This document shows, piece after piece, positions 2,583-30,676 of a stretch of 64,000 nucleotides of DNA (within the stretch, counting starts at the first letter, position 1; each line of letters opens with the position of its first letter). Below the pieces are notes generated by a model. It was not told the DNA's origin, did not search any database, and saw nothing but the letters and a program-made list of their open reading frames with translations. The DNA is from Bacteroidaceae bacterium. Its GTDB lineage: Bacteria > Bacteroidota > Bacteroidia > Bacteroidales > Bacteroidaceae. Made by a program: the position numbers and the translations under genes. The DNA lies in contig JAFWPH010000012.1 in the NCBI GenBank assembly GCA_017509605.1, positions 62,001 to 126,000 on the forward strand. Reading direction: 5' to 3'.

Positions 2583-3630
2583 TAATATTGCAGTAAATAT
2601 AACAGAAAAGCGAGAGCCTGTTCCTGAGGATAGTCGTTTTTATATAGGACTTGAGCATCTAGATTCTGGGTCACTATATGTGACAAGATATGGGCTTGAT
2701 GTTGACTTAAAAGGCGATAAGTTAGTTATGCATAAAGGCGACATCTTACTTGGAAAGCGAAACGCATATCTAAGAAGAGCCGCAATAGCCCCACACGACG
2801 GTTTATTTTCTGCACATGGCATGATTCTCAGACCCAAAGAAGATGTCGTAGATAAAAACTATTTTCCGTTCTTTGTCTCATCAGATAAATTTTTCGACGA
2901 AGTTATCAGGATATCCGTCGGCGGTCTATCGCCTACGGTTAATTGGAAAGATTTAAAGAATCTAGACTTCGACCTTCCTCCACTTGCTGAACAAAAGGTT
3001 CTGGCAGATAAACTTTGGGCGGCTTATCGTCTGAAAGAATCATACAAGAAACTGCTTGCTGCTACCGAGGAAATGGTGAAATCGCGGTTTATCGAGATGT
3101 TTGGGAATCCTGTTACCAACAATAAAGGTTGGAATACCTTACCTATCAAGGATGTTGCTCCAGAAGCTCCAAGCATAGAAAAGCAAACAGGGAAAGTGTG
3201 GATTCTGAATCTTGACATGATTGAGAGTAATACAGGTAAGGTCGTTGAAAAAGTCTTTGTAAACGACTCGAACTTGTTGTCTGTAGCCCCATTTGATGAA
3301 GGGAATGTACTATACTCAAAACTGAGGCCCTACCTCAATAAAGTAGTCATTCCAGACGGGAAAGGATATGCTACAACAGAACTCGTTCCACTCCGCCCGA
3401 ATCAGAAATTACTTAATCTCACATTCTTCAGTCATTTGCTTAGAGGAGATGATTTTGTTACTTACGCTAACAGTATATCGACTGGAACCAAAATGCCAAG
3501 AATGCCTTTGAACGATTTAAGAAAGTTCCAATGTATTCTTCCTCCTATGGAGAAACAAAATGAATTTGAAGAGATTGCGCGTCAGGCCGATAAATCAGGG
3601 TCTGTCCTGCAATATAGGATTGCATGTTAA
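2572..3630 (+). CDS. hsdS: Type I restriction-modification specificity subunit
   Basis: HsdS sets the recognition sequence of the complex. The 352-aa protein shows two target-recognition domains: TRD1 (~1-145), ending at the conserved LPPLAEQ helix, and TRD2 (~180-330), ending at LPPMEKQ. A linker helix between them contains KSRFIEMFGNP. The start overlaps hsdM by 11 bp. The C-terminal helix after EIARQADKS is very short: the protein ends about 10 residues later, where family members usually continue for 20-40 residues. This may be a natural short form or the result of a small frameshift. TRD1 is AT-rich compared with TRD2. No second hsdS cassette for phase variation is seen in the window. 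Confidence 0.9.
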   Translation: MKFDNIAVNITEKREPVPEDSRFYIGLEHLDSGSLYVTRYGLDVDLKGDKLVMHKGDILLGKRNAYLRRAAIAPHDGLFSAHGMILRPKEDVVDKNYFPFFVSSDKFFDEVIRISVGGLSPTVNWKDLKNLDFDLPPLAEQKVLADKLWAAYRLKESYKKLLAATEEMVKSRFIEMFGNPVTNNKGWNTLPIKDVAPEAPSIEKQTGKVWILNLDMIESNTGKVVEKVFVNDSNLLSVAPFDEGNVLYSKLRPYLNKVVIPDGKGYATTELVPLRPNQKLLNLTFFSHLLRGDDFVTYANSISTGTKMPRMPLNDLRKFQCILPPMEKQNEFEEIARQADKSGSVLQYRIAC

Positions 3631-27094: not shown

Positions 27095-27159
27095 TTTCGT
27101 TACTTGTTAAATTAATTAGTTATTCATCATGTACATAAAAGGAAACGGTGCGACAGGCA

Positions 27160-27230
27160 TAGAGAGTCATGAATCCCTCGATTATCAGTCGAGTGCTTTC
27201 TGACGTAGCTAATGAAGTATCTCTCTACTA
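27160..27230 (-). ncRNA. Ile(GAT)-like tRNA remnant (module 5)
   Basis: An exact anticodon arm, CTCGA-CTGATAA-TCGAG (27177-27193, anticodon GAT), with a short D-arm-like GCT/AGC hairpin before it and an acceptor-like TAGAGAG/CTCTCTA stem. A normal T-arm is missing. Confidence 0.5.
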
Positions 27231-27235
27231 CGGCA
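27213..27235 (-). repeat. Y-RNA-like motif copy 5 (nearest the Ro60 gene)
   Basis: TGCCGTAG, spacer, TACTTCA; the only copy ending in A. Part of its spacer (CTCTCTA on the plus strand, 27221-27227) can pair with 27160-27166, forming a 7-bp acceptor-like stem around the Ile-like module. Confidence 0.65.
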
Positions 27236-27332
27236 ACCGTTTTTGGTAAGCAGAAGCGACAGGCGGGCAACAGGCGGGAGTCTCGCAAAGATTTTTGAGA
27301 AAAACCAGTAAAAACCCTCCCTCATGGTGGAG

Positions 27333-27356
27333 CGAAGTATCTGTCATCCTACGGCA
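27333..27356 (-). repeat. Y-RNA-like motif copy 4
   Basis: TGCCGTAG, 9-base spacer, TACTTCG. Followed on the minus strand by a short CTCC/GGAG stem and GGGTTTTT (27310-27330), which could act as a weak terminator or attenuator before the Ro60 gene. Confidence 0.65.
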
Positions 27357-27371
27357 TTCTGCGTTTTTTTG

Positions 27372-27444
27372 TTGCGGGGGCAGGACTCGAACCTGCGTCC
27401 TCAAGCTTATGAAACTTGCAAGCTACCAACTGCTCCACTCCGCT
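27372..27444 (-). ncRNA. Initiator-Met(CAT)-like tRNA mimic inside the array
   Basis: A 73-nt sequence in normal tRNA order: acceptor, D-arm GAGC-AGTTGGTA-GCTT, anticodon arm CAAGT-TTCATAA-GCTTG (anticodon CAT), T-arm GCAGG-TTCGAGT-CCTGC. Position 1 does not pair with 72, as in bacterial initiators. However, the three G-C pairs of an initiator anticodon stem are absent, acceptor pair 6-67 is A x C, and the 3' end reads ACA rather than CCA. It may be scored as a tRNA by software, but it looks like a mimic derived from tRNA-fMet. Confidence 0.6.
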
Positions 27445-27481
27445 GTATGAAGCAAGGCTACTAGCGAAAAGACACAGTCAT

Positions 27482-27533
27482 TGCTCTGCCCACTGAGCTA
27501 CATGGACGAATCCACGGCTGGATTTGAACCAGC
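27482..27533 (-). ncRNA. Circularly permuted tRNA-like module with UUCG-capped acceptor stem (module 3)
   Basis: Minus-strand order: T-arm (GCTGG/CCAGC with TTCAAAT loop), acceptor 3' strand CGTGGAT, then TC, then acceptor 5' strand GTCCATG, T8-A9, and a canonical D-arm (GCTC/GAGC). The seven acceptor pairs close on a UUCG loop, so the normal 5' and 3' ends of a tRNA are joined and there is no CCA end to charge. An anticodon-arm-like segment (CTCTTAA loop, 27535-27551) precedes the T-arm. Confidence 0.7.
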
Positions 27534-27551
27534 GACCCCTGGCTTAAGAGG

Positions 27552-27574
27552 CGAAGTAAGTCTTATCTACGGCA
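27552..27574 (-). repeat. Y-RNA-like motif copy 3
   Basis: TGCCGTAG, 8-base spacer, TACTTCG. The spacer bases ATAAGA pair with TCTTAT just upstream, giving a hairpin with the conserved GCCGTAG in its loop. Confidence 0.65.
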
Positions 27575-27620
27575 CTTGCTTATAAGATGTGAGGCGACAA
27601 GCGGTGAGGGTTCTAAACTA

Positions 27621-27682
27621 CACCAGCGAACTGGTGGCAGGAATCGAACCTGCACTTTCGAATCTGCTATCCGACGTTCAAC
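27621..27682 (-). ncRNA. tRNA-like module with UUCG-capped acceptor stem (module 2)
   Basis: Minus-strand order: a D-arm-like hairpin (27666-27682), a short TTCG-containing segment where the anticodon arm would be, a perfect T-arm GCAGG/CCTGC with TTCGATT loop (27637-27653), then CACCAG-TTCG-CTGGTG (27621-27636). The joined acceptor cannot be aminoacylated. Confidence 0.65.
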
Positions 27683-27687
27683 CATTA

Positions 27688-27710
27688 CGAAGTATTCCTC
27701 TCCTACGGCA
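27688..27710 (-). repeat. Y-RNA-like motif copy 2
   Basis: TGCCGTAG, 8-base spacer, TACTTCG; preceded on the minus strand by a CACCTTTTT/AAAAAAGTG hairpin. Confidence 0.65.
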
Positions 27711-27819
27711 CTCACTTTTTTATTAAAAAGGTGGGGTGCAACGGTCGAAAGCGGACTTTTGGGAAAACCCAACGTTGGTTATCAGGAACTGAATCCTGCA
27801 CCTTCTACGGTTTATCAAA

Positions 27820-27842
27820 CGAAGTAACCCCTCACTACGGCA
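27820..27842 (-). repeat. Y-RNA-like motif copy 1 (start of the array)
   Basis: TGCCGTAG, 8-base spacer, TACTTCG. Spacer bases GGGGT can pair with ACCCC near the end of the module (about 27733-27737). Confidence 0.65.
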
Positions 27843-27863
27843 ACCACACCTAAATTATACATC

Positions 27864-28044
27864 TTTCGGAAGTAAAAATGGAAATAGAAATGGAAGTAAA
27901 CTCGCTACGCTCTTGGGAGTTATGTGCTTTGCACAGGACGATAGCATTTAATTGCTGTAGTATTGTCCAGCACGAAAGTGCTTAACTTCCAGCCAGCACT
28001 GCTGGCTTAACTCCCTATTTAACTTCATTTTATAACTTCCGAAA
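27864..28044. other. Multi-hairpin element closed by a 10-bp inverted repeat
   Basis: TTTCGGAAGT (27864-27873) and ACTTCCGAAA (28035-28044) are perfectly complementary. Inside lie GGAAGT/ACTTCC (27892 and 27985), AACTC/GAGTT, TGTGC-TTT-GCACA, a GGAC/GTCC stem around AGCA/TGCT, AGCAC-GAAA-GTGCT and AGCCAG/CTGGCT. It would be in the leader of the array transcript. It could be a structured RNA or a dispersed intergenic repeat of this genus. Confidence 0.5.
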
Positions 28045-28095
28045 CTTCAGTAAATTATACTTTTCTTTCAAAGAACGCTTTCGTTTTTCTGGTTG

Positions 28096-28236: not shown

Positions 28237-29427
28237 ATGAACAATTTTGATGTTATCCGTCAGGACGGCAGGCTCCTTTACGAGTATATCCGGGGAAGTC
28301 ACCTCTACGGACTCAACAATGAGGACAGCGACATCGACACCAGCGGTGTCTATGTCTGCACACGTGACGAACTGTTCAGCTGCTTCGGCTACTCGCCCCA
28401 GGTGACTGACAGCCGCCACGACAACACATGGTATGAGATAGGAGAACTGGTCCGTCTGCTTCTGAAATCCAACCCCACGGTGCTGGAAAGCCTCTTTGTG
28501 CCGAGGGACAAAGTAATCGGTGACATTCATCCCATCATGCAGATGGTCATCGACCAACGAGACCAGTTCATCAGCAAGCAGTGCTTCAATCCTTTCTTCG
28601 GCTATGCCAAGTCGCAGATAGAGAAGGCATGGGGACTGAACAAGAAGATTGTCAATCCTGTGACCGAACGCCTGACGCCATACGATTTTATCTATACTTT
28701 CAAGGGGCAGGGTAGCACGAAGTTCAGCGACTGGCTCGACAATCGCAGTATGCATCAGGAGTTCTGCGGTCTTGTCAACGTGCCCAACATGCACGACATC
28801 TATGGCGTGTATTATGACTTTGGAGCGCACACCGCCGCTTATCCGGACTGGAGAGAAGACGGGCGGTTTCTATCTTTCTGCCAAGAATATTATGGAGACA
28901 CGGAAAAGGTCGCTGTCATCGAAAGACTGTCAAAGATGGTGCCGATAGGCTATCGTGGTGTCATCAAGAAGGATGCCAAGGCCGATGAGATACGACTCTC
29001 CTCCATTGACGACAAGCACACTCGTCCGATGTGCTTCATCTCCTACAACCAAAGTGGATACTCCATGCATTGCCGTCAATATGCGGAATACCAGATATGG
29101 GTGAGCAACCGCAACCCGAAACGCTATGAGTCGAACCTTGACAAGAACTACGACTCGAAGAACATGATGCACTGCTTCCGGCTGATGCACATGGCAGCGG
29201 AGATAGCGGAGGGTAAGGGAGTGATACTGCAACGCACCGAGGACAGGCAGTTCCTGATGGATGTGCGCAACCACAAGTTCGAATACGAGGAAATCATCGA
29301 GATGCTGGAACGTGATAAGGAGCGGATGAACCATCTGATGGAACAGTCCACCATCCGTGAGAAGATTGACACGGACTTTGTCAATAACCTGATGATAGAG
29401 ATTCGGAAACAACAATTCAGAATGTAA
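28237..29427 (+). CDS. RlaP-type nucleotidyltransferase (DNA polymerase beta superfamily), predicted RNA repair
   Basis: A 396-aa protein whose N-terminus carries the polymerase-beta-type nucleotidyltransferase signature: Gly20-Ser21 in RGSHLYG and Ser31-Asp32-x-Asp34 in EDSDID. The rest (~60-390) is mostly helical and matches the overall form of the RlaP family (RNA repair pathway DNA polymerase beta family). Known: members were proposed from gene neighbourhoods to modify RNA ends; a firm reaction is not established to my knowledge. It is the first gene of a tight three-gene operon (1-bp gap to the kinase) divergent from the Ro60 gene and its tRNA-like array. A decayed copy of its first codons lies at 30682. 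Confidence 0.82.
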   Translation: MNNFDVIRQDGRLLYEYIRGSHLYGLNNEDSDIDTSGVYVCTRDELFSCFGYSPQVTDSRHDNTWYEIGELVRLLLKSNPTVLESLFVPRDKVIGDIHPIMQMVIDQRDQFISKQCFNPFFGYAKSQIEKAWGLNKKIVNPVTERLTPYDFIYTFKGQGSTKFSDWLDNRSMHQEFCGLVNVPNMHDIYGVYYDFGAHTAAYPDWREDGRFLSFCQEYYGDTEKVAVIERLSKMVPIGYRGVIKKDAKADEIRLSSIDDKHTRPMCFISYNQSGYSMHCRQYAEYQIWVSNRNPKRYESNLDKNYDSKNMMHCFRLMHMAAEIAEGKGVILQRTEDRQFLMDVRNHKFEYEEIIEMLERDKERMNHLMEQSTIREKIDTDFVNNLMIEIRKQQFRM

Positions 29428-29428
29428 T

Positions 29429-29899
29429 ATGAAGAAACTTCCATTTGACATTAGGCAGACCTGTCAGATTATCGTGTTCATCGGCATTCAAGCCAGTGGA
29501 AAAACCACCTTCTTCAAGCAATGGTTGGCTCCTCATGGTTATGTCCATATCAATCTTGACACTCTACGCACACGTCCCAGGGAATCGCTGGCCATCCAGG
29601 AGTGTTATGACCGTGAACAGTCGTTCGTCGTCGACAACACCAATCCTGAGAAAACCGATAGGGAGAGGTACATTCAAGATGCCAAGGCGCATGGCTATGA
29701 GGTGATAGGCATTTTCTTTCAGAGTATAGTGAGAGACTGCATTGTCAGGAATGATATGAGAGAGAAAAAAGTCCCCGTGAAGGCAATCCCCTGTACACAA
29801 AACAAATTACAGCTGCCCAACTATGCTGAAGGATTTGATAAACTCTATTTCGTGAGAATAAAGGATATTGATTTTTTAATATCAGAATGGAGGGAATGA
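29429..29899 (+). CDS. P-loop kinase, polynucleotide 5'-kinase-like
   Basis: A small (156 aa) P-loop phosphotransferase. Walker A is G19IQASGKTTF, an Asp/Asn pair follows in VVDNTNPEKTDRERYI (Asp69), and a lid-like Arg-rich stretch is at ~105-115 (VRDCIVRNDMREKK). This resembles the kinase half of T4-type polynucleotide kinase and bacterial AAA_33 proteins. In context it probably phosphorylates 5'-OH RNA ends, the step that would prepare substrates for a Thg1-type polymerase. It sits 1 bp after the nucleotidyltransferase and 3 bp before thg1. A small-molecule kinase cannot be excluded. Confidence 0.78.
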   Translation: MKKLPFDIRQTCQIIVFIGIQASGKTTFFKQWLAPHGYVHINLDTLRTRPRESLAIQECYDREQSFVVDNTNPEKTDRERYIQDAKAHGYEVIGIFFQSIVRDCIVRNDMREKKVPVKAIPCTQNKLQLPNYAEGFDKLYFVRIKDIDFLISEWRE

Positions 29900-29902
29900 A
29901 AC

Positions 29903-30676
29903 ATGGACTTTAATACACTTGACAAACTGATGAGACGTTTCGAGCAGTCACTGGATAGGACCATGCTCAATGGGATTTATATGGTGGCTAGACTAGACGG
30001 GCATGGATTCACGCGCCTTACCAAGAAAGAATGGAATCTGGAGAAACCTTTTGACATTCGGTTTCGTGATGCCATGATAGAAACCACAAAGCATTTGATG
30101 GATTGTGGTTTTCGCATGATCTACGGCTACACGCAGAGTGACGAGATATCTCTTCTATTCCATTTGAAAGACAACACTTTTGGCAGAAAAGAGAGAAAAC
30201 TGTTGTCTATACTTGCAGCAGAAGCATCTGTGGCGTTTTCTATGCAGACAGGCAGAGCGGCTGTATTCGATAACAGACTTGTTCCTTTGCCAACAATGGA
30301 AAACGTGGTGGACTATTTCAGATGGCGGCAGGAGGATGCACACCGTAATTCCCTAAACTCACACTGTTATTGGAAATTACGCCAGGAAGGTGTCTCTGCA
30401 GATGAAGCACAAGAGCAACTAGCAGGAATCTCCAATAGTGAGAAGAATGAACTTTTGTTCTCGAGAGGCGTCAATTATACTGATTTACCTTCATGGCAGA
30501 AACGAGGCGTTGGTATGTTCTATCGTGATGATGATAGGCAAGGCTTCAATCCTATTACTAAAGAAACTACATCTTATAAAAGACGCATGCTATGTGTAGA
30601 GATGGAATTGCCGATAGGACAAGAGTATTCCAAATTGATTAACACGGTCGTTGAGGATTCAAATAAAGGGGATTAG
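29903..30676 (+). CDS. thg1: Thg1-like 3'-5' RNA polymerase (tRNA-His guanylyltransferase family)
   Basis: A 257-aa Thg1-family protein. The metal-binding carboxylates are visible in ARLDGHGFTRLTK (Asp32) and YTQSDEISLLF (Asp80, Glu81). The family's HRNSLNSHCYWKLR segment is present at ~150-163. Known: Thg1 and bacterial or archaeal Thg1-like proteins add nucleotides to the 5' end of tRNA in the 3'-5' direction; bacterial forms favour templated repair of 5'-truncated tRNAs. It is the last gene of the rlaP-kinase-thg1 operon, beside a Ro60 gene and tRNA-mimicking RNAs, so a role in tRNA 5'-end repair is inferred. Confidence 0.92.
   Translation: MDFNTLDKLMRRFEQSLDRTMLNGIYMVARLDGHGFTRLTKKEWNLEKPFDIRFRDAMIETTKHLMDCGFRMIYGYTQSDEISLLFHLKDNTFGRKERKLLSILAAEASVAFSMQTGRAAVFDNRLVPLPTMENVVDYFRWRQEDAHRNSLNSHCYWKLRQEGVSADEAQEQLAGISNSEKNELLFSRGVNYTDLPSWQKRGVGMFYRDDDRQGFNPITKETTSYKRRMLCVEMELPIGQEYSKLINTVVEDSNKGD

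Follow-up and report, generated by a model that had tools for sequence, protein, structure and literature searches.

Animal Y RNAs, the RNA partners of Ro60, share a conserved terminal stem and, to our knowledge, lack a tRNA-like head. In bacteria, YrlA (RF02553; Salmonella YrlA, PDB 6CU1) is encoded beside the Ro60/Rsr gene and combines a terminal stem for Rsr, containing a ACUUGUCGCC-like 3' element, with a head in which a T-arm, a closed acceptor stem and a D-arm follow one another in circularly permuted order (PMC11472068, PMC8394870); as far as the excerpts of these two papers go, the only arms attributed to the permuted tRNA-like domain are the D, T and acceptor arms. The Salmonella rsr-yrlBA-rtcBA operon joins Ro60 and Y RNAs with RNA-repair enzymes, namely RtcA/RtcB, and with RtcR (excerpt of PMC7790460).

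The locus described here lies in a 64,000-nt stretch of a Bacteroidaceae contig (the window) and has features of both systems: a Y RNA array has a TROVE/Ro60 (Rsr) gene on one side and, on the other, a divergent operon for RNA repair that encodes RlaP, a kinase and Thg1 (Table 1). Unlike YrlA, most units of the window add an apparent anticodon loop, which varies from unit to unit, and a second kind of unit is permuted in the D loop and carries a whole anticodon arm. Unlike the Salmonella operon, the locus has five Y RNAs and one tRNA, and its repair genes encode RlaP, an AAA_33 kinase and Thg1 on the opposite strand. Y RNAs beside Ro60 and a permuted tRNA-like domain are thus known; the titles and abstract openings of the papers listed in our searches say nothing of an anticodon loop in a Y RNA, and an earlier publication is possible.

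The protein encoded directly downstream of the array has the domain order of Ro60/Rsr, TROVE (93 bits) and then the Ro60 vWA domain (32.3 bits), and its PDB relatives are 9L5Y, 9KOP and, weakly, 2NVO. In the divergent operon, the predicted role of RlaP is to replace the base that is lost when an anticodon has been cleaved, and that of Thg1 to replace bases lost at 5' ends (excerpt of PMC7824862); no ligase was seen among its three genes. At least one of the three repair genes is present in only 9 of 50 TROVE loci, many of which have short flanks.

Table 1. Features of the locus; positions are those of the window, and the Y RNA units are predictions.
Feature	Position	Strand	Details
TROVE domain/Ro60-type protein (Rsr), 507 aa	25571..27094	-	PF05731, PF25045; directly downstream of array, same strand
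Y RNA unit D, next to TROVE	27145..27240	-	ACGGU-UGCCGUA-G(UAGAGAG)A-UACUUC ... CUCUCUA-UGCCUGUCGC-ACCGU; helix 1 ACGGU/ACCGU
Motif copy, unit D (TGCCGTAG...TACTTC)	27214..27235	-	pattern search
Y RNA unit C	27251..27361	-	CAGAA-UGCCGUA-GGAUGACAG ... CUGUUGCC-CGCCUGUCGC-UUCUG; helix 1 CAGAA/UUCUG
Motif copy, unit C	27334..27356	-	pattern search
tRNA-Met(CAU)	27371..27444	-	free-standing; Ro module absent
Y RNA unit B (YrlA-like)	27452..27579	-	helix 1 GCAAG/CUUGC; Rfam RF02553 34.0 bits at 27475-27541
Motif copy, unit B	27553..27574	-	pattern search
Y RNA unit B2	27589..27715	-	helix 1 GUGAG/CUCAC; Rfam RF02553 19.9 bits at 27610-27654
Motif copy, unit B2	27689..27710	-	pattern search
Y RNA unit A	27730..27850	-	module; helix 1 (outer stem) GGUGUGGU/ACCCCACC
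Motif copy, unit A	27821..27842	-	pattern search
Leader element GTTCTTTGA	28068..28076	-	upstream of array
RlaP nucleotidyltransferase (RNA repair), divergent	28237..29427	+	PF10127
AAA_33/polynucleotide-kinase-like protein	29429..29899	+	PF13671
Thg1 (tRNA-His guanylyltransferase family)	29903..30676	+	PF04446, PF14413

The array was noticed in a sequence-only reading as five copies of a motif. The copies are real: the pattern GCCGTAG-N7/8-TACTTC occurs five times on the minus strand (G of GCC at 27841, 27709, 27573, 27355 and 27234) and zero times on the plus strand of the window, and Markov-shuffled windows contain 0.05 copies on average. The steps between copies are 132, 136, 218 and 121; the last two had been given as 219 and 120, one spacer being 1 base longer. 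In its own genome (3.6 Mb, 88% complete) the motif is found five times, all in the array, and the reversed control pattern once.

We scanned contigs with the TROVE protein and obtained 50 related loci (L003-L052), nearly all from uncultured Bacteroidales. These contain 120 copies of GCCGTA-N7..12-TAC(T/C)TC in addition to the five in the window, always on the TROVE strand, mostly upstream of TROVE and in some loci downstream. A finder for the complete two-strand module described below, run on the 50 TROVE loci (527,564 bp), returned 146 modules on the TROVE strand but not a single one on the opposite strand or on reversed sequence; because the finder was designed on the same loci, it is the controls and not the match count that carry weight. 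At least one unit is present in 44 of the 50 loci; three of the six loci without a unit (L028, L044 and L048) have 6 kb of upstream sequence. Among 198 Bacteroidales genomes, TROVE is found in only three, and the bare motif has 66 matches, five of them in the array and one beside the TROVE gene of another genome. The remaining matches lie dispersed, with about 0.3 per genome, which does not exceed the figure for the reversed control. Since this is about the chance level, the association of the motif with TROVE loci is a specific one and more than chance would give. Both expectations of the sequence-only reading, that the motif would recur next to other TROVE genes and would not abound at unrelated sites, are thereby borne out.

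Each copy is the 5' strand of a module whose second invariant strand, CGNNTGTNGC, had been overlooked. The 5' strand reads N5-UGCCGUA-G(N7-8)-UACUUC and the 3' strand, approximately 50-100 nt later, CGNNUGUNGC-N5', so that a complete unit has the form 5' N5-U-GCCGUA-G-N7/8-UACUUC-head-N7-C-GNNUGUNGC-N5 3'. Two helices are formed: helix 1, in which the outer N5 strands pair with each other, and helix 2, in which the spacer pairs with the N7C preceding the second element. We analyzed both by swapping partners among the 78 of 125 units that have exactly one 3' candidate, where pairing played no part in the choice (the other 47 were left out). Helix 1 has 4.83 of 5 positions paired as compared to 2.93 with shuffled partners (sd 0.12, max 3.28), and helix 2 has 7.04 of 8 as compared to 5.12 (sd 0.12, max 5.46; 1000 shuffles each), i.e., both pairings are unit-specific across the 50 related loci. 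In the type-B units described below, the flanking elements hardly vary (entropy 0.00 bits for UGCCGUA and 0.05 bits for UACUUC, versus 1.38 bits for the displayed loop). Only one of the three pairings named earlier, TAGAGAG with CTCTCTA, is correct; ATAAGA with TCTTAT is not the conserved pairing, GAUAAGAC-type 5' strands facing GUCUUUUC in 21 relatives, and GGGGT with ACCCC is wrong, ACCCCACC being the outer 3' strand that faces GGTGTGGT.

The units have the build of Y RNAs, with a terminal stem formed by the 5' and 3' ends and a conserved interior, and, as for YrlA, they lie beside a Ro60/TROVE gene. In the predicted layout, a fixed internal loop separates two variable helices (1 and 2), UACUUC follows helix 2, and the whole would carry a unit-specific head. 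At the matching 3' place, the Rfam consensus of YrlA reads AcUuGucGcc, which CGNNUGUNGC resembles, a likeness that connects the module with the stem by which YrlA binds Rsr; we therefore regard the two-strand module as a candidate for the Ro60-binding part of each RNA. The earlier suggestion of a fixed protein-binding face on a variable stem fits well in that the module occupies the position of the YrlA terminal stem in the Rfam model. It was incomplete in that both strands are needed, that UACUUC borders the displayed anticodon loop and not a stem alone, and that the tRNA-like bodies with their different anticodons were missed. RF02553 is the best Rfam family at units B and B2, in both cases below its gathering threshold of 69 bits, a threshold that is narrow, since the TROVE-linked Y RNAs of Rhizobium and Deinococcus also fall short of it (59.4 and 49.6 bits). 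The YrlA-type permuted domain (T-arm, acceptor-like hairpin, D-arm) is present in two of the five window units, B and B2, and absent in C and D. The units are YrlA-like Y RNAs and not members of RF02553, and each of the five motif copies is very probably the 5' strand of a bacterial Y RNA gene.

Most units very probably display an anticodon loop, and, judged by their sequences, most heads are tRNA mimics whose backbone is interrupted at another point: within the anticodon stem, on its 5' strand, in type B (less clearly in type A) and in the D loop in type B2. In type B, UACUUC is followed by two bases, a 7-base loop, two bases complementary to the first two, and three bases that pair with the three bases following the D-arm; then come the T-arm, an acceptor-like stem closed by a small loop, and the D-arm. 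Put back in tRNA order, the molecule has its break between positions 29 and 30, and this is where the Ro module sits. To score the loops, we used 31 genuine anticodon loops, taken from the 149 ARAGORN records of 12 genomes of the family and of the window genome, after dropping 3 of 151 units as nested and removing identical heads (type B 34 to 32, type B2 20 to 19). The 7 bases after UACUUC-NN are a genuine anticodon loop in 12 of the 32 distinct type-B heads, with eight different loops, as compared to 0 at 13 other offsets and a shuffle mean of 0.04 (max 2 in 2000); the scan was restricted to type B, the scan over all 141 distinct heads being diluted by other unit types. Anticodon-stem positions 27-29/41-43 are paired in 77 of 96 cases, versus 46 with shuffled partners (sd 4.2, max 59).

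An alignment (A1) of 21 of the 32 type-B units, leaving out 11 atypical ones (from L006, L012, L023, L024, L031, L032, L035, L037 and L042), has 92.1% of its cells paired in the named structure. Its covariation is 0.202 versus 0.110 for shuffled alignments; none of 500 shuffles attained the observed value, and sliding the structure gave 0.068 or less. RNAalifold, unaided, returns the model with a 2-bp stem and a 7-nt loop. The 2-bp loop stem has no covariation of its own because it hardly varies. The displayed loop is the most variable segment of type-B units; for example, units in L013 and L014 differ in 1.6% of columns outside the loop and carry the anticodons GUU and CUU, respectively. Type-B units as they stand are not tRNAs, the acceptor being closed by a small loop and ARAGORN calling 0 of 32. 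When rejoined, 28 of 32 are called, but shuffled controls average 23.7, so that this assay does not discriminate.

For type B2, rejoining is informative. Here, the tRNA is opened in the D loop, the acceptor is closed by UUCG or similar, the two strands of the D stem are set apart, and the anticodon arm is complete. As they stand, 0 of 19 are called by ARAGORN; with the module, the tetraloop and extra D-loop bases removed, 18 of 19 are called, versus an average of 1.2 over 50 trials (max 4) with everything ahead of the T-arm shuffled. An initial rotation test without trimming was weak, with 23 of 51 called versus 14.3 in controls. The B2 anticodons are mostly those of arginine (ACG, CCG, UCG and GCG). 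ARAGORN calls of tRNA-Leu(tag) in the arrays of L012, L013, L014, L029 and L050 overlap B2 units and were rejected as artefacts of the permuted order.

The remaining types (90 distinct heads) contain five hairpins with a 5-bp stem and a genuine loop, versus 0.07 expected. Type D, next to TROVE, is half a tRNA, with a D-arm-like piece and an anticodon arm. Read heuristically, as are the class A and class D calls, 66 units display 33 different triplets, some of the class A entries being doubtful. Other recurring heads, such as GCCGGUGGGGUAAAACCCACAAGGGC (L015, L017, L020, L021, L038 and L047), have no visible likeness to tRNA.

Within the window, unit A has the loop UUGAUAA (27812-27818), flanked by GU/AC and followed by a T-arm-like hairpin. 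Unit B2 is a whole tRNA permuted in the D loop, its D stem split by the module, with the anticodon arm UCGGA-UAGCAGA-UUCGA (27658-27674; the loop is without U33), a T-arm and an acceptor closed by UUCG; ARAGORN calls the joined sequence tRNA (gca). Unit B is permuted within the anticodon stem, and its loop, CUCUUAA (27544-27550), is that of tRNA-Lys CUU; T-arm, acceptor-like stem closed by UUCG, and D-arm follow. Unit D has, at its apex, a D-arm-like piece and the anticodon arm CUCGA-CUGAUAA-UCGAG (27177-27193; anticodon GAU). In the apical part of unit C, no tRNA-like piece and no anticodon were recognised. C-type heads, found in the window unit, in L041 (about 5783) and in L145 (about 5710), either form a GGGG...CCCC hairpin with UGGCGA or are longer and contain GGUUUUUCUCAAAAAUCUUUGCG-like stretches. 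Single-sequence folding lends the units no support (z from -1.06 to +0.15).

The insertion of about 75 nt suspected earlier to be Met-like is a tRNA-Met(CAU), whose cloverleaf has the ordinary order of arms and whose acceptor end is free. Its body is like that of the genome's initiator tRNA, and its anticodon arm, CAAGU-UUCAUAA-GCUUG, has the genome's elongator-type loop. The same arm recurs in L006, L013, L014, L016, L050 and L051 and in the putatively viral contigs L145 and L146, and for this reason we consider the tRNA-Met to be a standing part of such arrays rather than a chance insertion.

Array, module, pairings, permutations, anticodon loops and the linkage to TROVE can be read from the sequence itself; transcription and processing of the array would be expected, and we infer binding by Ro60 and a link to RNA repair. 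The explanation that we prefer for the whole locus, with a probability of about one half, is that a single array upstream of the TROVE/Rsr gene gives rise to five Y RNAs, which are bound by Ro60 and act, mostly through tRNA-mimic heads, as baits or sentinels. Ro60 would thus hold a set of uncharged tRNA look-alikes presenting different, exposed anticodon loops to tRNA-cutting enzymes, such as toxins and the anticodon nucleases of phages or defence systems; cut RNAs might be mended by RlaP, the kinase, Thg1 and, probably, a ligase encoded elsewhere, and the loops would be exchanged quickly under a constant handle. The heads cannot be charged, because the acceptor stem, where present, is closed by a small loop. 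The uncharged heads, the exposed and fast-changing loops and the repair enzymes next door together make baits or sentinels for tRNA-cutting enzymes the best reading, to which we give slightly less than even chances. For Salmonella, a published observation speaks against it: the anticodon nuclease under study reportedly did not act on the tRNA-like domain of YrlA, though the domain was proposed to compete (excerpt of PMC7790460). An array whose Y RNAs differ chiefly in the displayed loop makes the purpose of bacterial Ro60 and its Y RNAs testable, since the loop of each Y RNA predicts which enzymes should touch it, and the units exemplify two naturally occurring sites of circular permutation in tRNA mimics.

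The main rival is that the loops draw readers of the anticodon arm (modification enzymes, synthetases, PNPase partners) to Ro60, each Y RNA being a tether with its own cargo and not a bait. This accords with the published view, in an excerpt of PMC8394870, that Y RNA tethers Rsr to PNPase and is a substrate of tRNA-modifying enzymes, and with the retention of T-arm, D-arm and loop; however, a loop that switches between near-identical units, as from GUU in L013 to CUU in L014, is unexpected for a conserved partner, and we consider this rival unlikely, though worth keeping in mind. Less probable still is a reference or template for repair, in which the displayed arm would keep the two pieces of the corresponding cleaved tRNA in place, or in register, on Ro60 during the replacement of missing bases by RlaP and Thg1. 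The divergent operon, partly present near the arrays of other species, and the ability of its enzymes to restore bases lost at cut ends (excerpt of PMC7824862) would suit such a role, but the loop has the sense of tRNA and not its complement, so that direct templating is excluded, and the operon shows no ligase. It is very improbable that the array merely gathered decaying tRNA copies with functionless loops. Pieces derived from tRNA are abundant, and there are degenerate units and one, unit C, with no such piece; yet the flanks are invariant, the structure covaries, genuine loops appear at one fixed offset only, and loops change to other genuine loops rather than drift. Finally, the invariant short flanks and repeated spacing could mark repeats that act as DNA, as recombination or protein-binding sites, but we give this practically no credence, since it is already contradicted by the covariation, with compensatory changes in helices 1 and 2 across strands 50-100 nt apart, and the repeats have a single orientation, that of TROVE.

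Related systems occur outside Bacteroidales. A Rhizobium plasmid (L149, NZ_CP140810.1) likewise has several Y RNAs beside TROVE and RtcB genes; inspection by eye places an anticodon-like arm (5 bp/7 nt), with the loop UCGUUAA, in which C replaces U33, at the type-B site of the unit at 3083, and suggests that the unit at about 3509 is permuted in the D loop. The module sequence is different (GGCGAAUGC ... CUCGUCGCC). In the crAss-like phages crAss001 (L151), PhiCrAssBcn24 (L152) and cr106_1 (L153), the TROVE gene is followed by tRNAs with an inserted Ro-type hairpin that ends in UUACUUC and sits, by eye, at the anticodon stem or in the D loop. One crAss001 tRNA (Rfam tRNA, 46.6 bits) has an 82-nt insertion containing UUACUUC in the anticodon arm; in cr106_1, the tRNA with the anticodon-arm insertion has, by eye, the loop CUUGUAA, and a second tRNA, with a D-loop insertion, shows UUAGGGA in crAss001 and UUUGGGU in PhiCrAssBcn24 (also by eye). 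Unlike in the bacterial units, the acceptor stem of these tRNAs is open and the molecule ends at the acceptor, and the hybrids look like unpermuted counterparts of the bacterial units, which links the bacterial arrays with the tRNA-Ro hybrids of these phages. More speculatively, Ro60 of gut and rumen Bacteroidales could hold a fast-changing library of anticodon baits that soaks up or detects tRNA-cutting enzymes, and of which crAss-like phages carry the unpermuted counterpart on their own Ro60; if true, such a library would give bacterial Ro60 a role in tRNA conflicts.

Upstream of the array, the leader element GTTCTTTGA precedes the first unit in 14 of the 42 loci with enough upstream sequence (the window and L004, L006-L010, L012, L016, L018, L020, L021, L034 and L041), with an expectation of 0.005 per locus, and lies 26-39 bases before the first unit in 11 of the 14. 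We take it to be reminiscent of the boxA antitermination elements of rRNA. A promoter-like pattern upstream of the arrays was seen in only 4 of the 42 loci, the window not among them, and was dropped. Between the leader element and the first Y RNA of the window lies a MITE-like interspersed repeat of 191 bp (27862-28052) with imperfect inverted ends (28-nt arms, 71% complementary) and 48 matches in its own genome, about a dozen of them nearly full length at 74-91% identity.

Two putatively viral IMG/VR contigs (L145 and L146) have a TROVE gene that is 87% identical and the same array. Long rows of tRNA genes on the same strand follow TROVE in L031 (6402-7563), L032 (3294-3867) and L043 (2159-3446), with 13, 6 and 9 tRNAs by ARAGORN, respectively. 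Downstream of TROVE in the crAss-like phages (L151 3100-4020, L152 and L153), TTACTTC occurs three to four times, at the junctions of hairpin and tRNA.
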